Source: Phycisphaera sp.
GTDB taxonomy: Bacteria; Planctomycetota; Phycisphaerae; Phycisphaerales; UBA1924
Length of the DNA stretch: 64,000 nt
NCBI GenBank assembly: GCA_025916675.1
Contig: CP098402.1
Coordinates: forward strand, 2,165,205-2,229,204
Direction: 5' to 3'
Positions 5,113-12,321 of this stretch are shown here, piece by piece. The notes beneath the pieces were generated by a model. That model saw nothing but the letters and a program-made list of their open reading frames with translations. It was not told where the DNA came from and did no database searches. Position 1 is the first letter of the stretch. Every line of letters starts with the position of its first letter. The position numbers and the translations under genes are program-made.

Positions 5113-8100
5113 ATGGCATGGTTTGGCAAGAATAAAAAATCGAATGAATGGTCACCCGTACAGGAGGGGCAAGACGATCCATCGCCTGCTGAAGCTACCG
5201 GGTCGGGACCGCCACCTTTGCCCGACAAGATTCGAAACGGGGAACAAGCAGAGGCGGCTCCGAATCCGACAACCGACGTAAGGCAGCGAGTCCTCGGGCT
5301 CTTGCGATTCCTTCGTGAGATTACCGAACTGAGCATCAAGTCCGTCCGGGATACGCAGTCCTACGAGCATTGTGTGTGGCTCCAGGACATCGCTGGCGCA
5401 CCGGGTTGTGTGTGCAGGGTGCCGGGGGAGCTCTGGACGCACGGCGATGAATTCTGGGCGGAAGTTGTCAACCAGCGCAAGCCCCCAGCGCCGCTCCCTC
5501 CCGAGGTCTGCGAGCGGTGGATTAAAGGGGTGTGGGACGACTACGAGCAAGAGCCCACTCTTCGCGATCGCGTGTTGGTACCCGCCGAGGCTCAACCTGA
5601 AACAGACGCCATCCGCGAGGACGCGGCCGAGATCACGCAATGGGAGGAGCCGACGAAGCTGTTCGCCAGCCCGGCGGTTTCAAAAGATGGCGCAAGCGAC
5701 GCAAATGCGCACGAGCTTGCGCTCGCCGACCATCCTGACGTCGCAGAGGCATGGCAAGCATATCTTGAGCAACAGTGGCGCCCATGGGTCGATCGGATCC
5801 AGACCTGGCTGCACAACCGCCGCATCTACCGCAAGTTCTTTGAGATCCATCAGGCCCAGGAACGACTGGGCGAGGCCTACGAGTTGGTCATGGGCTTCGG
5901 CCTGCTCGCGTGGGCACCTGAATCGGGTGAGCCGGTGCGACGGCATCTGTTGTGCGCCAACGTGGAACTTGAGCTTGATCCCAACAAGGGCGTGTTCACC
6001 CTGCGGCCCGCGTCCGAGGGGGTGAAGCTTCGTGTGGAACTCGACATGGTCCCCGTCGACCAGCGGCCGACCGACCTGCAAGAGCGCATGAGCGGCGCTG
6101 CACTGATCGCCGACGATGATCCCTGGGAACTGGGCCCGATTGAGAACGCGCTGCGGTCGGCCGCCCGGGCCCTGCACCAGGATGGCGAGTACGAGCGGGC
6201 AATGGAGCGTCCGGGGCAGGCCAATGCCGCTCCGCGCGTCCACATCGCGCCGGCGCTAATCTTGCGCAAGCGATCGACGCGCGACCTGCTCAAGGTGCTC
6301 GATGCCATCTCGCTCGATGTGGAAGAAGCCGGAGCACTCACGCCCCTGCTCCAGTTAGCCGTCGAAGCAACGGTCGATGCTCCAGAAAATGACGACCATG
6401 AGCGATCGCCGGTGGTCGACCTTCCCGAGCCGGTCTACATGCCGCTGCCGACCAACGACGACCAGGAGGCCATCGTCCACAAGGCGCGCCACGCCCACGG
6501 CGTGCTCGTTCAGGGACCGCCCGGAACAGGCAAGAGCCACACGATCGCCAACCTCATCTGCCACTTGCTGGCCACCGGCCAGCGCGTCCTCGTCACCGCT
6601 CAGACGCCTCGCGCCCTTCAGGTGCTCGTCGGTGATGGGGAGAAGGGTGGCAAGCTGCCCGAAGCCATCCGCCCGTTGTGCGTCGGCCTCATGGGACGCG
6701 GGCGTGACGAGATGCGTTCGCTCGGCGAGTGTGTCGGCCGGATCCTGGGAAAGCGCGAGGAATGGACCGAAGCGCACAGCGCGAAGACGATCGCGAAGCT
6801 GAAGCAGACGCTCGACGGGCTTCGTGCCCAGCAGGCGGGGCTTGCCTCGGACCTCCGCCAACTCCGCGAGCGCGAGACCTACCAGCACAGCTTCGGCGAT
6901 GGTGCCTACAAGGGCACGCTGGCCCGGATCACGCGGGATATTGAGGCCGATGCGGCGCGGCTTGGCTGGTTCGAGGACGAGCCCGAAGAGGATGCGAGCT
7001 TTGATCCGATCGTGCGCGATGACCTTGGAGAATTTCTCGGCCTGTTGCGCAGCATTTCGGCGGACGATGAGCGAGAGCTGGCCCAGTCGTATCCTCGCCG
7101 CCATGACCTTCCCTCGCCCCAGGACTTCGCAAGCCTTGCCGGACGCGAGCGGGACGCAAAGTCTGAGGCTGCGCACTGGAGCGAGCCCGGGCGATGGGGT
7201 GAGGCCCTCAGACGCACCCCGCGAGACTCGGTCGAGATCGTCGCGACCACCAGCCAGGCCCTGCGGGCCAAGATCGAGCAGGCGACCGCGCGGCAGCTCC
7301 CGTGGAGCGACCGGGCGGTGCGCGAGGTCCTGGGCGAGCATGAGACGCCATGGCGCGAGCTGCTCGACGGCTCGGCGAGGTTGATCGATGGCCTACGAGC
7401 ACGGGCACGCGATGCGGATGAGAAGCAGGTCCACGGTGCTCCCGAGAGCCTCGACGCCGAGGCCATGCGATTCGAGGCAACCCGCCTGGTGGAGCACCTG
7501 GAGGCCGGCGGGCGGTTGGGATGGAGCCCCTTCAAGCGCAGACCGAAAGCCGTTCGGAACGCGGCCAAGCTGATCCGGCCGGTTCGCATCGCGGGGCGTC
7601 CGTGCGAGGATGCGGCGGGGCTCCGGTTGCTGATCGAGCGAACCGAGACCGAATTGGCCGTGCGGCGGCTCTGCCGGCTATGGGCGGGCAAGGCTCACGC
7701 CGAGCACCCCCTGCTGGCCGATCGGGTCGCCGAGATCGAGGAACACAATGAGGTGCTCGCGGCCATCCTGGAAGCCTTCGAGCTGCTCGGCCCGTCGCAA
7801 CAAGGCGCCCTTGCCGCTGGCGTATCGCCGATGCCGGCGTGGAGCGATCCGCAGACGGCCGCCGAGCTCGCGGCCTCGGCGCAGTACGCGTTGAGCCGGC
7901 TGGACCTGTCCAGTCTCGAAGAACAGTGGCGGGCCACTGCCCGCGCGCTGCCGCGTGAGGGCGATGCCAACGCGCATCCCATCAACACGGAGCTGCGACG
8001 CATCATCGAGCAGCGTGATGCGCACGGGTTTGCCGCGATGTGTCCAAGTCTCGAAGATCTGTGGAAGAGATCGGCCGATCTGGCCCGGCGCAAGAGTCTG

Positions 8101-9807
8101 GAACGCGGACTATCTGAGGTGCTGCCAAGGCTCGTCGATACTGCCCACGCGCAGCCAGACGATGACCGATGGCCCGAGCGCTTGGCGGATTTGGACAAGG
8201 CCTGGGCTTGGGCGTGCAGCCGCCAAGCGGTGCGCGCCCTGCTTGAGCAGGATGACTCGGAGGAACTGGAGCGTCGGTACAAGGACACGGGCCGGCGGAT
8301 CGAGCAGGCCGTGGAGAATCTGGCGGCGGAGAAGGCGTGGCTGTCGTGCTTCACGACGATGAATGATGCGCACGCCAGCCACCTGAAGGGGTGGAAGCAC
8401 GCGGTTCAGAAGGTTGGCAAAGGCACCGGCAAGCACGCCGAGAAGTATCGCCGGGACGCTCAGCGTCATCTCGAAGCATGCCGGGAGGCCATCCCGGCAT
8501 GGGTCATGCCGTTGCACCGGCTTTACGAGTCCATCCAGCCCAAGGCGGGCATGTTCGACGTGGCCATCGTGGATGAGGCCTCGCAGTGTGCGCAGGACGC
8601 CCTCGTACTCGCGTACCTGGCCAAGCGCGTCATCGTGGTCGGGGACGACCAGCAGATCTCGCCTTCCGCTGGATTCATGGATGGCGACGTGGTTGAGATG
8701 CTTATCCGCAAGCACCTGGACTTCCTGGTTCACAAGGACCTGTTCCGCAAGGGCAATAGCCTTTACGACGCGGCAAACCGATGGTTTGGCAACAGCATCG
8801 TGCTCAAAGAGCACTTCCGGTGCGTGCCCGAGATTATCCGATTCAGCAACGACCTGTGTTATTCGGCGAGCCCGCTGATCCCGCTTCGTCAGGACCGCCC
8901 GAGTTTGGAGCCCCTCGTGTGCCGGCGCGTGCCCGAAGGCCATCGGGAGGGCAGGGGGCAGCGCGTGGTTAATAAGCCCGAAGCCGTCGCTTTGGCCGAT
9001 GCCATTGCGGAGTGTTGCAACGATCCCCGGTACCGCGGCAAGACCATGGGCGTCATCACGCTCCAGGGTTCCGGCCAAGCCCCGATGATCGAGAACCTGC
9101 TGCTCGATCGGCTGGGTCCAGAAGAGATCGAGAAGCGCCGGATCCTGTGCGGCGACGCCTACGCCTTCCAGGGCGACGAACGTCACGTTATGTTCCTGAG
9201 CATGGTGGCGGCCCCGAACGAACGCATTGGTGCGTTGACCAAGGAGGACGACAAACGCCGCTTCAATGTGGCCGCGAGTCGTGCTCAAGACCAGATGTGG
9301 TTGTTCCACACCGCCACACCCAACGACCTCAATCCCAACTGCGTGCGGCGGCGGCTTCTCGATTTCTTCCAAGACCCCCGAGGAACCTTCGAAAGGTCGA
9401 CCGGTGTGAGTGTCGAGCAGCTTGATCGCGCCGCGGTGAAGGGCGACCGGTACCCGGGTTCGCAACCTCACCCCTTCGATAGTTGGTTCGAGGTCGATGT
9501 CGCACTGCGGATCGCCAACACCGGCTACAGCGTGACGCCGCAGTACGAGCTCGCACGGTACCAGATCGATCTCGTGATCGAAGGGGAAGTCGACGGCAAA
9601 CTCAGGCGTCTCGCGGTCGAGTGCGATGGCGACCATTGGCACGGACCCGAGCAGTACGCCCAAGATGTACACCGGCAGCGACAACTCGAGCGGGCGGGGA
9701 TGCGATTCTGCCGAATCCGGGAGAGCGCCTTCTACGCCAACCAGGAAAAGGCGATGGAGCAAGTCTGGCAAGCTGTCTCGGATCTTGGGATTGGTAAGTC
9801 TCTGTAA
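5113..9807 (+). CDS. Giant SF1 (UPF1/DNA2-like) helicase fused to a C-terminal Vsr-like nuclease
   Basis: The 1564-residue protein has a poorly recognisable N-terminal 460 residues, then Walker A GPPGTGKS (468-475), a long charged helical insert, the DEASQ Walker B motif (about 1154), VGDDQQISP, an FRCVPEIIRFSN motif, and the late helicase motifs AYAFQGDE and FNVAASRAQDQ. Residues about 1460-1557 form a restriction-like domain of the Vsr/MTES_1575/DUF559 type with ECDGDHWH (Glu1503 onward) and a following RQRQLERAG helix. This architecture is known from predicted and tested phage-defence genes, so an invader-DNA or RNA role is inferred. No methylase or partner adjoins it. The ATG at 5113 (MAWFGKNKK) lacks a clear ribosome site. 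It sits between a repeat array and the thrS leader, as an inserted single gene might. Confidence 0.85.
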   Translation: MAWFGKNKKSNEWSPVQEGQDDPSPAEATGSGPPPLPDKIRNGEQAEAAPNPTTDVRQRVLGLLRFLREITELSIKSVRDTQSYEHCVWLQDIAGAPGCVCRVPGELWTHGDEFWAEVVNQRKPPAPLPPEVCERWIKGVWDDYEQEPTLRDRVLVPAEAQPETDAIREDAAEITQWEEPTKLFASPAVSKDGASDANAHELALADHPDVAEAWQAYLEQQWRPWVDRIQTWLHNRRIYRKFFEIHQAQERLGEAYELVMGFGLLAWAPESGEPVRRHLLCANVELELDPNKGVFTLRPASEGVKLRVELDMVPVDQRPTDLQERMSGAALIADDDPWELGPIENALRSAARALHQDGEYERAMERPGQANAAPRVHIAPALILRKRSTRDLLKVLDAISLDVEEAGALTPLLQLAVEATVDAPENDDHERSPVVDLPEPVYMPLPTNDDQEAIVHKARHAHGVLVQGPPGTGKSHTIANLICHLLATGQRVLVTAQTPRALQVLVGDGEKGGKLPEAIRPLCVGLMGRGRDEMRSLGECVGRILGKREEWTEAHSAKTIAKLKQTLDGLRAQQAGLASDLRQLRERETYQHSFGDGAYKGTLARITRDIEADAARLGWFEDEPEEDASFDPIVRDDLGEFLGLLRSISADDERELAQSYPRRHDLPSPQDFASLAGRERDAKSEAAHWSEPGRWGEALRRTPRDSVEIVATTSQALRAKIEQATARQLPWSDRAVREVLGEHETPWRELLDGSARLIDGLRARARDADEKQVHGAPESLDAEAMRFEATRLVEHLEAGGRLGWSPFKRRPKAVRNAAKLIRPVRIAGRPCEDAAGLRLLIERTETELAVRRLCRLWAGKAHAEHPLLADRVAEIEEHNEVLAAILEAFELLGPSQQGALAAGVSPMPAWSDPQTAAELAASAQYALSRLDLSSLEEQWRATARALPREGDANAHPINTELRRIIEQRDAHGFAAMCPSLEDLWKRSADLARRKSLERGLSEVLPRLVDTAHAQPDDDRWPERLADLDKAWAWACSRQAVRALLEQDDSEELERRYKDTGRRIEQAVENLAAEKAWLSCFTTMNDAHASHLKGWKHAVQKVGKGTGKHAEKYRRDAQRHLEACREAIPAWVMPLHRLYESIQPKAGMFDVAIVDEASQCAQDALVLAYLAKRVIVVGDDQQISPSAGFMDGDVVEMLIRKHLDFLVHKDLFRKGNSLYDAANRWFGNSIVLKEHFRCVPEIIRFSNDLCYSASPLIPLRQDRPSLEPLVCRRVPEGHREGRGQRVVNKPEAVALADAIAECCNDPRYRGKTMGVITLQGSGQAPMIENLLLDRLGPEEIEKRRILCGDAYAFQGDERHVMFLSMVAAPNERIGALTKEDDKRRFNVAASRAQDQMWLFHTATPNDLNPNCVRRRLLDFFQDPRGTFERSTGVSVEQLDRAAVKGDRYPGSQPHPFDSWFEVDVALRIANTGYSVTPQYELARYQIDLVIEGEVDGKLRRLAVECDGDHWHGPEQYAQDVHRQRQLERAGMRFCRIRESAFYANQEKAMEQVWQAVSDLGIGKSL

Positions 9808-9905
9808 AGCCGCCAGACCCCCTCAGTCTCGGAAGACCTCGACAGCTCCCCCGCTGGGAGCGGAGGAGCGGGTAAGAGCCCCTAGGGCGGGCGTACGGAG
9901 GGGAG

Positions 9906-9934
9906 CACGGCTTGCCGAAGACGGGCAAGCCGTG
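9906..9934. repeat. Strong palindrome after the helicase-nuclease gene
   Basis: CACGGCTTGCC at 9906-9916 pairs perfectly with GGCAAGCCGTG across a short GAAGACG-like loop. There is no T-tract on either side. It may be a U-less terminator for the preceding gene or a copy of a dispersed intergenic palindrome. The remainder of 9808-10034 holds no gene I can support. Confidence 0.6.
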
Positions 9935-10034
9935 GCACCCATTACCCCCCCATGGAGTGGGCGTGCTCACGCAGCGCGGCTCGGAAGGACGGGGCCGCCA
10001 CTCCCGCATTCCAGCCGTGCCGCCACCTGGCCGA

Positions 10035-10040
10035 TATACT
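10035..10040 (+). promoter_or_regulatory. Candidate -10 element TATACT of the thrS leader transcript
   Basis: TATACT matches the -10 consensus in five of six positions. Its usual start site, six to eight bases downstream, would fall on or next to the ATG of the leader peptide at 10046, making a nearly leaderless transcript. No good -35 hexamer is seen 17 bases upstream. Confidence 0.4.
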
Positions 10041-10045
10041 CCCAC

Positions 10046-10102
10046 ATGCCACGCCCCACCACCACAACCACGACCACTACGGAAACCCGCCCCCGCGGCT
10101 AG
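10046..10102 (+). CDS. Threonine-rich leader peptide of thrS (18 aa)
   Basis: The 18-codon frame encodes MPRPTTTTTTTTETRPRG: eight consecutive threonine codons (10058-10081), using all of ACC, ACA, ACG and ACT, and a ninth after Glu. It lies about 130 bases upstream of threonyl-tRNA synthetase and is followed by a Rho-independent terminator and an alternative pairing. By analogy with the enterobacterial amino-acid operon leaders, ribosomes would stall here when charged threonyl-tRNA is scarce. No ribosome site precedes it; the -10-like TATACT suggests translation from the extreme 5' end. The peptide itself probably has no function. It could be chance low-complexity sequence, but position and partner hairpins argue otherwise. 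Confidence 0.7.
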   Translation: MPRPTTTTTTTTETRPRG

Positions 10103-10140
10103 TCTCGGCGTGCCCACACACGATCCCCGAGCCCGGCCGC
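10095..10140 (+). promoter_or_regulatory. Putative antiterminator of the thrS attenuator
   Basis: GCGGC (10095-10099) is complementary to GCCGC (10136-10140), and CTCGG (10104-10108) to CCGAG (10127-10131), with a 4x4 internal loop. This fold would occupy the left arm of the terminator at 10132-10138. Its 5' strand overlaps the leader peptide's last codons and stop, so a ribosome finishing the peptide would block it, while one stalled on the threonine codons would leave it free. Confidence 0.55.
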
Positions 10141-10157
10141 ATGGCCGGGTTTTTGTT
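10132..10157 (+). terminator. Rho-independent terminator (attenuator) upstream of thrS
   Basis: CCCGGCC (10132-10138), loop GCAT, GGCCGGG (10143-10149), then TTTTTG and three more T residues. It stands between the threonine leader peptide and the thrS start 74 bases further on, with no other gene it could terminate. Confidence 0.8.
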
Positions 10158-10230
10158 TGGCCAGCAATCCTGAACGACCCCCTACCCTTGACCCTTATTC
10201 GAAGAGCCCCCAGCCCACGGAAGCAATCCC

Positions 10231-12321
10231 ATGAGCCACCCAGTCAAGATCACCCTCCCCGACGGCTCCACCCGCGACTTCGACGGGCCGGTCACCCCCC
10301 TCCAGGTCGCCCAGGACATCGGCGCCCGGCTGGCCAAGGCCGCCGTGGGGGCCCGCATCAACGGCGAACTGGCCGATCTGGACGCCCCAATCGTCGCCAA
10401 CTGCAACCTGGCACTGCTCACCGAGAAGACCCGCGATGGCAAGCCGGACGAGGGGGCCATGTACCTGCTGCGGCACTCGACTGCTCACGTGATGGCCGAG
10501 GCCATCCAGCGTGTCGTGCCCGGGGCCATGCTCGTGTACGGCCCGCCGCTGGACACCGGCTTCTACTACGACATCGCCTTCCCCGAGGACCGTCCATTGA
10601 GGGAAGGCGACTTCGAGGCCATCGAGGCCGAGATGGCCAAGATCGTGAAGGAAGACCGGCCCTTCACTCGCTACGACATGGAATACAGCGATGGGCTAGA
10701 GAAGCTCAAGGGCGAGGGCAGCAAGTACAAGCTCGACAACGCCCATCGCGCGCACGAGGCTGGCTCGCTCAAGCTCTCGTTCTACGCCACCGGCGAGCCC
10801 GGCAAGGACTGGGAGGACCTGTGCCGGGGCCCGCACGTGCCCAGCACCGGCCGCATCGGCGCGTTCAAGGTCATGAGCCTCGCCAGCAGCTACTGGCACG
10901 GCGACGAGAACAGCGACCGCCTCACCCGCGTCTACGGCACCAGCTTCTTCAGCAAGAAGGACCTGGCCGAGTACCTCGATCGCCTCGAACAAGCCAAGGC
11001 CCGCGACCACCGCGTGCTGGGCAAGAAGCTGGGGCTATTCCACATCGACGAGACCGTGGGCCAGGGCCTCGTGCTCTGGACCCCAGCCGGCGCGGTCATC
11101 CGGCACGAGCTCCAGCAATTCATCGGCACCGAGCTCACCCGCCAGGGCTACCACGAGGTCTTCACCCCGCACATCGGCAAGCTCGACCTCTACCGCACCA
11201 GCGGCCACTTTCCGTACTACGCCGACAGCCAGTTCCCGCCGCTGGTCGACCGCGAGCACATGCACCAGCTGAGCGAGGAGGGCTGCACCTGCGCGCAGCT
11301 CAGCAACAACCTCAAGGTCGGCCAGATCGAGGGCTTCATGCTCAAGCCCATGAACTGCCCGCACCACATCAAGATCTACGACAGCCAGCCGCACAGCTAC
11401 CGCGACCTGCCCCTGCGCCTGGCCGAGTTCGGCACCGTCTACCGCTGGGAGCAATCGGGCGAACTCAACGGCATGACCCGCGTGCGCGGCTTCACCCAGG
11501 ACGATGCGCACCTGTTCTGCACCCCCGAGCAGGTGGGCGAGGAGGTCCAGGGCTGCCTCGAGCTGGTCAAGATCATCTTCGGCGCCCTGGGCATGGAGGA
11601 CTACCGCGTCCGCGTGGGCCTGCGCGACCCCGATAGCGGCAAGTACACCGGCGACGCGGCCAACTGGGACAAGGCCGAGGAGGCCTGTCGTGAGGCGGCC
11701 AAGTCGCTGGGTGTGCCCTTTACCGAGGAGCCCGGCGAGGCGGCCTTCTACGGCCCCAAGATCGACTTCGTCGTCCGCGACGTCATCGGCCGCGAGTGGC
11801 AGCTCGGCACCGTCCAAGTGGACTACAACCTGCCCGAGCGCTTCGAGCTGACCTACATCGGCAAGGACAACAAGCCCCACCGCCCGGTGATGATCCACCG
11901 CGCCCCCTTCGGCAGCATGGAGCGCTTCATCGGCGTGCTCATCGAGCACTTCGGCGGCGCGTTCCCCCTGTGGCTCAGCCCCGAGCAGGTGCGCGTGCTG
12001 CCCATCAGCGAGAAGACCAACGACTACGCGCTCGGGGTCGTCGCCGCCCTCAAGGCCGCGGGCATCCGCGCCACCATGGACGACTCGGACGGCCGCATCC
12101 AGGCGAAGATCAAGAACGCCGCCGAGCTGCGCATCCCCTACCTGGCCGTCGTCGGCCCGCGAGACCAGGAGAACAACGCCGTCTCGATCCGTGCGCGAGG
12201 CGTGCAGAAGGATCTCGGGGCGCTGCCGGTTGGTGAGTTTGTTGAGGCGTTGGTGAGTGAGCGGGAGAGCAAGGGGACGGAGTCGGTGCGGGATCGGTTT
12301 GCGGAGGCGGCGAGCGTGTAA
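10231..12321 (+). CDS. thrS: Threonyl-tRNA synthetase
   Basis: The 696-residue class II synthetase shows the full bacterial order: N-terminal TGS domain (about 1-65), editing domain with the HSTAHVMAEAI motif (about 80-240), catalytic core and C-terminal anticodon-binding domain. The zinc ligands expected from the E. coli enzyme are visible as Cys in MKPMNCPHH, His in FTQDDAHLF and His in VMIHRAPFGSMERF. It charges tRNA-Thr with threonine in the cytoplasm. The ATG at 10231 is preceded by a CGGAAG-like ribosome site. Upstream is a threonine leader peptide with a terminator, so expression is probably controlled by transcription attenuation in response to threonyl-tRNA levels. The gene is not in an operon with infC or rplT, its common neighbours elsewhere. 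Confidence 0.97.
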   Translation: MSHPVKITLPDGSTRDFDGPVTPLQVAQDIGARLAKAAVGARINGELADLDAPIVANCNLALLTEKTRDGKPDEGAMYLLRHSTAHVMAEAIQRVVPGAMLVYGPPLDTGFYYDIAFPEDRPLREGDFEAIEAEMAKIVKEDRPFTRYDMEYSDGLEKLKGEGSKYKLDNAHRAHEAGSLKLSFYATGEPGKDWEDLCRGPHVPSTGRIGAFKVMSLASSYWHGDENSDRLTRVYGTSFFSKKDLAEYLDRLEQAKARDHRVLGKKLGLFHIDETVGQGLVLWTPAGAVIRHELQQFIGTELTRQGYHEVFTPHIGKLDLYRTSGHFPYYADSQFPPLVDREHMHQLSEEGCTCAQLSNNLKVGQIEGFMLKPMNCPHHIKIYDSQPHSYRDLPLRLAEFGTVYRWEQSGELNGMTRVRGFTQDDAHLFCTPEQVGEEVQGCLELVKIIFGALGMEDYRVRVGLRDPDSGKYTGDAANWDKAEEACREAAKSLGVPFTEEPGEAAFYGPKIDFVVRDVIGREWQLGTVQVDYNLPERFELTYIGKDNKPHRPVMIHRAPFGSMERFIGVLIEHFGGAFPLWLSPEQVRVLPISEKTNDYALGVVAALKAAGIRATMDDSDGRIQAKIKNAAELRIPYLAVVGPRDQENNAVSIRARGVQKDLGALPVGEFVEALVSERESKGTESVRDRFAEAASV

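Follow-up and report, generated by a model that had tools for sequence, protein, structure and literature searches.

In this work, the thrS gene of Phycisphaera sp. (Phycisphaerales) was found to be preceded by an element which is very probably a classical ribosome-mediated (leader-peptide) transcription attenuator. The element is located in a 64,000-nucleotide stretch of contig CP098402.1 (referred to as “the window”), for which an initial annotation had proposed attenuation of the trp/thr type, a reading that is now supported computationally by conservation, predicted folds, co-evolution and the position of a −10 box. Considering those features which can be examined at the level of the sequence, the element is real and is a member of the leader-peptide attenuators: it comprises a short translatable ORF rich in cognate codons, an intrinsic terminator located before the first structural gene and, according to thermodynamic prediction, an antiterminator and a terminator which are mutually exclusive, the choice between them being set by the position of the ribosome. 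The corresponding features (positions of the window) are as follows:

10035–10040, + strand: −10-like box TATACT, as read in the sequence, separated from the leader ATG by 5 nt.
10046–10102, + strand: leader ORF MPRPTTTTTTTTETRPRG of 18 codons (ATG at 10046, stop codon TAG at 10100–10102), without a Shine-Dalgarno-like motif.
10058–10081, + strand: eight consecutive Thr codons in the sequence (ACC ACC ACA ACC ACG ACC ACT ACG), the proposed stall site.
10082–10153, + strand: outer helix of the antiterminated fold (10082–10089 with 10146–10153), predicted for the stalled state.
10095–10140, + strand: predicted antiterminator hairpin GCGGCUAGUCUCGG...CCGAGCCCGGCCGC, −23.4 kcal/mol, with 99.1% of cells paired across seven congeners.
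10129–10154, + strand: intrinsic terminator, consisting of a hairpin (10129–10152) which begins 26 nt after the leader stop, and a U-tract (10150–10154).
10183–10188, + strand: TACCCT, an uncertain −10 box of a possible second promoter 3’ of the terminator.
10231–12321, + strand: thrS, encoding threonyl-tRNA synthetase (TIGR00418, 638.7 bits against a cut-off of 383.65), the gene proposed to be controlled.

The mechanism which we infer from these features involves leaderless initiation, ribosome stalling, termination in vivo and a response to threonine. Transcription would begin on the leader AUG or right beside it, and the ribosome would load directly on this leaderless start. When Thr-tRNA is ample, the ribosome would pass the eight Thr codons, reach the UAG and cover positions 10095–10108; because the 5’ strand of the antiterminator straddles the leader stop codon, a ribosome finishing the leader would mask it, and with the antiterminator blocked the terminator at 10129–10152 would fold and RNA polymerase would stop before thrS. 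When Thr-tRNA is scarce, the ribosome would stall in the Thr run, leaving 10095–10108 free to pair with 10127–10140. This pairing would capture the 5’ arm of the terminator, transcription would proceed into thrS, and the extra synthetase would bring charging back. Since the Thr leader and the associated off-switch are kept in many relatives, threonyl-tRNA synthetase (ThrRS) is probably produced for the most part under a shortage of charged threonine tRNA.

At the locus, the 18-codon frame with its eight consecutive Thr codons before thrS, as described in the initial annotation, proved exact to the base, and the Rho-independent terminator with a U-tract that had been reported after the leader stop was recovered at 10129–10154. 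The two alternative pairings which had been proposed are also present in the sequence (GCGGC at 10095–10099 with GCCGC at 10136–10140, and CTCGG at 10104–10108 with CCGAG at 10127–10131), and to these an inner CGTG/CACG pairing and the outer helix are now added. In the predicted folds, the antiterminator thus spans the leader stop codon with its 5’ strand and takes the terminator 5’ arm with its 3’ strand, and the 3’ strand of the outer helix (10146–10153) is made up of the terminator 3’ arm and the U-tract. The folding-energy z-score of the stretch is −3.46, with one of 200 shuffles folding as well. A single terminator-like site, taken alone, is unremarkable in a GC-rich stretch such as this (shuffles give 0.4), and the weight of the evidence at the locus is provided by the combination of features and their conservation, not by a lone terminator.

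A known Rfam element was ruled out as the identity of the thrS element, as no family matched at gathering score in the window or in nine further loci, and the six weak matches obtained at E-values up to 10 within 9900–10260 (E 0.13–3.7) all belong to unrelated families. The Rfam Thr_leader family, which we take to be RF00506, gave no gathering-score match in the window or in the nine further loci and is absent among the six weak matches, and the T-box model gave no match before thrS either at gathering score in the window or at E-values up to 10 in 9900–10260. Beside the thrS start no tRNA gene was detected by ARAGORN, a result which says nothing on an operator of the E. coli ThrRS type.

Conservation was assessed by looking for thrS in 41 relatives and among 121 genomes belonging to the order, together representing 132 different genomes, from which 109 loci were examined; left out were two genomes in which thrS was unmatched (G019 and G108), one in which the contig starts inside thrS (G014) and 20 from genera already represented. 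The stretch scanned 5’ of thrS was 450 nt for the first 99 loci and ≈600 nt for most of the later ones (292 nt for L223 and 1224 nt for L283), and a leader was defined across the order as a short ORF with at least five Thr in 10 codons. Within the genus, all seven genomes compared carry a Thr leader (at least seven Thr in 10 codons) with a terminator after it. Across the order, a Thr leader precedes thrS in 44 of the 109 loci (42/99 in the first set and 2/10 among those added), being found in 22/44 loci of family f1, 1/23 of f2, 1/1 of f3, 5/6 of f4, 4/9 of f5 and 11/26 of f6; at 65 of the 109 loci, including 22 of the 23 in f2, no leader was recognisable within the scanned stretch. Among the short ORFs 5’ of thrS, Thr is the only amino acid enriched to this degree: at least eight Thr in 10 codons are reached at 24/99 loci, the maximum for any other residue being 7/10.

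Of the 42 leaders of the first 99 loci (to which the later finds L273 and L278 do not belong), 41 have a terminator-like hairpin after them, the exception being L033 of family f1, where the Thr leader MLRRATTTTTEPGSRG precedes thrS and no terminator was found. This hairpin begins 24–43 nt after the leader stop in 40 of the 41 cases; at L023 the best-scoring hairpin lies farther away, and the nearer one was taken for the folding, duplex and chimera tests described below. The Thr run plus terminator, whose presence in relatives had been put forward initially as a check, are therefore kept. At three loci (L032, L036 and L140) leader and terminator are located ≈300–440 nt before thrS. A small gene encoding a Cys-containing DUF6487 protein of 77–78 aa lies between them and thrS at L032 and L036, and is apparently within the attenuated operon.

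The consequence of ribosome position was predicted by folding for the 41 leaders with a terminator, which are not independent since they include close relatives and seven species of one genus. With the ribosome placed at the stop codon, the probability of the terminator, P(terminator), is at least 0.5 in 41/41 predicted folds, with a mean of 0.97. With the ribosome stalled mid-run, the mean is 0.44, and P(terminator) is below 0.5 in 23 leaders and at least 0.5 in the other 18. The same mid-run stall combined with dinucleotide-shuffled spacers yields a mean of 0.90, and for 25 of the 41 leaders at most five of 100 shuffles are as low as the leader’s own mid-run value. In 13 of the 41 no stall position brings P(terminator) below 0.5 (12-nt mask); varying the ribosome mask between 9 and 18 nt left the outcome nearly unchanged. 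At the thrS locus of the window, P(terminator) goes from 0.98 with the ribosome at the stop to 0.00 when stalled mid-run, which, together with the 23 leaders below 0.5, bears out as a prediction the claim of a mutually exclusive fold that disables the terminator; if the ribosome stalls instead at the outlying final Thr codon, the value is 0.83. When no ribosome is present, P(terminator) is 0.00 at this locus (predicted readthrough) and has a median of 0.96 over the 41 leaders. Therefore, the default state of the untranslated RNA is not conserved.

Because the sequences differ between genera, spacers were joined across species in a chimera test, in which each species’ spacer was combined in silico with the terminator of every other species, using one representative per clade. 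Among the 30 clades, own pairs have a mean P(terminator) of 0.564 versus 0.811 for permuted pairs, with 0 of 20,000 permutations being as low; in other words, the terminator of a clade is disabled more effectively by the antiterminator segment of that clade than by those of other clades. The chimera test took the place of a cruder and weak duplex test between the stop region and the 5’ arm in fixed windows (29 of 5000 permutations; 5/41 within the best 5%). Covariation, which had also been suggested as a check, is thus obtained between clades and genera, but not within the genus, where the arms are nearly invariant and no compensatory changes were seen in either the antiterminator or the terminator, the latter with 98.6% of cells paired.

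Regarding the start of the transcript, a −10 hexamer usually ends ≈6 nt before the transcript start point. For 25 of the 42 leaders, a TANNNT motif was found to end 4–9 nt upstream of the leader start, versus 5 of 168 equally wide background spans (5/156 without three loci that have too little upstream sequence), and for 32/42 it ends 4–11 nt upstream; a Shine-Dalgarno-like motif precedes the leader in 2/42. Considering the position of this box and the usual spacing, transcripts would start on the start codon or only a few bases away from it, and the leader is probably translated leaderless. The TATACT box, which had been read as placing the start at the leader ATG, therefore has a counterpart at or near the matching position in most leader-bearing relatives. 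No match to a leader promoter with a −35 hexamer was found at the locus. Passages of PMC5397173, where one planctomycete genome is tabulated, group planctomycetes with phyla using few Shine-Dalgarno sequences, and suggest leaderless and/or S1-dependent initiation.

A further TANNNT motif is located 35–47 nt before thrS in six of the seven congeners, and it is possible that a second promoter in the genus could bypass the switch. The same boxes speak for an alternative in which the hairpin serves simply as a terminator or insulator and a separate promoter 3’ of it (TACCCT at 10183) drives thrS, the leader being incidental or involved only in fine-tuning. Over all terminator-bearing leaders, however, such boxes are not enriched (22/41 versus 23.1 expected), which rules out a second promoter 3’ of the terminator as a general feature, and own-promoter expression leaves unexplained the Thr run, its steady distance from the terminator and the antiterminator, and is thus unlikely.

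Thr leaders also occur beyond the order. In other orders of the class 52 genomes were considered (three were unmatched, and G137, G142 and G150 were left out), and the same leader criterion recovered a Thr leader in 7 of the resulting 46 loci. Two of these (L225 and L282, family f11) have a strong terminator after the leader. In family f15, Thr leaders are present in five of seven loci (L234, L236, L238, L251 and L254). Examples of these ORFs are MNTTTTTTTTC and MATTLTTTTTC; in three of the five, Cys is the last residue before the stop, and no convincing intrinsic terminator was found at these five loci. These f15 leaders are possibly a Rho- or translation-based version, and a leader can therefore exist without a terminator. 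Together with the terminator-less L033 in the own family, they agree with an explanation in which translation of the leader determines whether the thrS start, or a Rho site, is accessible, the intrinsic terminator having no role. For the element described here this is very unlikely, since in the genus a strong hairpin with a U-tract follows the leader in 7/7 genomes and the predicted alternative pairing is present.

Named public thrS loci were also scanned, over up to 650 nt upstream, using the best 80 of 594, of which 78 have at least 150 nt upstream; they represent Phycisphaerae, other planctomycetes, Verrucomicrobiota, Bacteroidota, archaea and others. Some of the matches begin inside the gene, so that part of the scanned stretch is coding. 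Among these best 80 of 594 (78 usable), a single locus (L051) reaches six Thr in 10 codons, and its longest Thr run does not exceed two. The nearest named matches, 73% identical at best, place the organism in the class Phycisphaerae.

Repeat-rich short ORFs were counted in order to judge the Thr run against its genomic background. The window contains 43 short-ORF tails with at least six of 10 identical residues; a terminator is found after 3 of the 43, and a single-residue run longer than four occurs in the thrS leader only. Six consecutive ACN codons are found at seven places in the 3.6 Mb genome, of which only the thrS site is followed, no more than 120 nt after the stop, by a terminator exceeding 5 kcal/mol. 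A chance Thr-codon run is ruled out by these counts and by the Thr enrichment before thrS, and a simple repeat is ruled out by the mixture of synonymous Thr codons: 94 of 239 adjacent pairs in the leaders are identical versus 91.3 expected, and among the congeners the third codon positions of the run vary with Thr mostly being kept. That the leader has nothing to do with regulation, being instead a genuine small protein or a low-complexity repeat, to which the six-codon Thr runs at six other genomic places might point, can practically be dismissed, given the synonymous mixing, the lack of conservation between genera outside the Thr run (as judged by eye) and the strong terminator found only after the thrS copy. 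Elsewhere in this genome (C1:2772293–2772315, L208), a run of eight Thr codons lies in a long open frame and is not a leader; by eye, it falls close to the N-terminus of a protein that has a signal-peptide-like stretch.

Attenuators of the enterobacterial thr, trp and his systems combine a leader with cognate codons, a terminator, an antiterminator that includes the leader end, and a switch determined by ribosome position. The thrS element shares with these the cognate-codon run, the intrinsic terminator, the antiterminator comprising the leader end and the (predicted) ribosome switch, but differs from them in that it would control a synthetase gene, is probably leaderless, has no Rfam match and belongs to Planctomycetota. 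In Firmicutes, thrS is controlled by the T-box through antitermination, in which the RNA binds tRNA-Thr directly and senses its charging; signal, target and the use of antitermination would be the same in the element described here, but the T-box has no leader peptide. In E. coli, ThrRS represses the translation of its own mRNA through tRNA-like operator arms near the thrS start. Polycysteine leaderless short ORFs of mycobacteria reportedly act as an attenuator (according to the title of Canestrari et al. 2020), which would likewise be a leaderless attenuator with a single-residue run, the residue being cysteine and the target operon another one.

The initial annotation had stated that no case was known for a synthetase gene in a planctomycete-like organism. 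According to part of PMC1262725, pheST in gamma-proteobacteria and trpS and leuS in Streptomyces are under classical leader-peptide attenuators; these are likewise tRNA synthetase genes, for other amino acids and in other phyla. Parts of PMC2965389 describe His leaders ahead of hisS paralogues in bacilli and state, as of 2010, that demonstrated leader-peptide systems were otherwise confined to Proteobacteria and Actinobacteria, with ermC as an exception. The closest case is found in sections of PMC8079986, namely a leaderless thrL with two Thr codons (MKRVRPFLETTPGFVPAR) before thrS in Streptomyces lividans TK24, at which its authors see no clear Rho-independent terminator. It is likewise a candidate leaderless leader peptide before thrS, yet a weak one, its two Thr codons contrasting with the eight found here together with a terminator, an antiterminator and conservation. 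As regards planctomycetes, a survey counts, in the part concerned, no T-box in its single planctomycete genome (PMC2494555), and leader genes are counted in planctomycetes in PMC4833913, the main text of which, as far as it is available, is without thrS, threonine or Phycisphaerae. A search of openly accessible published papers for planctomycetes or Phycisphaerae combined with leader peptides or attenuation retrieved no described system among the papers listed. The statement therefore does not stand for synthetase genes as such, given pheST, trpS, leuS, hisS and the S. lividans candidate, and stands for the phylum. As synthetase attenuators were already known, the element represents a new phylum for a known mechanism and not a new mechanism. 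What is new is the occurrence in this phylum, how strong the case for thrS is, and a candidate sister system at hisG.

Classical attenuation is in this manner extended, with comparative evidence, to Planctomycetota and to thrS, whose best-known modes of control are translational autoregulation in E. coli and the T-box in Firmicutes. The cell organisation of planctomycetes is much debated, and the element would imply transcription-translation coupling in this lineage, because attenuation needs a ribosome close behind RNA polymerase. Moreover, the apparently leaderless start would make the element a natural test of how a 70S ribosome loaded on a bare AUG keeps pace with the polymerase.

Cognate leaders are not limited to thrS, since hisG of the same genome is preceded by a His leader, located as follows:

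C1 1426949–1427398, − strand: stretch before hisG (L287) with the His-rich leader MFQTCFHHHHGHATHPRRGWL in its sequence.

A TAATCT box is found 9 nt before the ATG of this leader, and a terminator 38 nt after its stop. Among the 41 relatives, hisG was matched in 20 and is preceded by a His leader in 12, these comprising 7/7 congeners and 12/13 loci of the family, with 0/7 in two other families; a terminator-like hairpin follows 10 of the 12 His leaders. At 13 other synthetase-type loci of the genome (PF00587, PF00133, PF01409 and PF00579; L188 being a sub-cut-off match) neither a Thr leader nor a short ORF with at least five of 10 apparently cognate codons was found, the identities being assigned by eye, in a scan by which leaders with two or three cognate codons (as for Trp) would be missed and which had the Ala, Arg, Lys/Asp/Asn and Glu/Gln families outside its scope. 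Two chorismate-binding genes have no convincing cognate leader, with short ORFs containing two or three Trp located nearby, and none was found for hom, where an open frame reaches the edge of the stretch and the upstream region lies beyond it.

The hisG leaders point to more switches of this kind. We lean towards a reading in which Phycisphaerae use leaderless poly-codon leaders as a general sensor of tRNA charging (in one genome at least for both thrS and hisG), while another family of the class would have an offshoot that lacks the terminator and works through Rho or translation. The lineage would then possess an attenuation network of its own built on leaderless translation, in which 70S loading on a 5’-terminal AUG replaces Shine-Dalgarno initiation in the timing between ribosome and RNA polymerase. 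If true, this would be an attenuation network in a phylum for which no description of an attenuator was found in the open literature.

Just 5’ of the thrS leader, the window encodes a helicase/nuclease-like protein of 1564 aa (5113–9807, + strand), which matches the PADLOC models PDC-S37, MkoC and MkoA and bears a resemblance, far below cut-off, to the anti-phage proteins ProA and Hhe.
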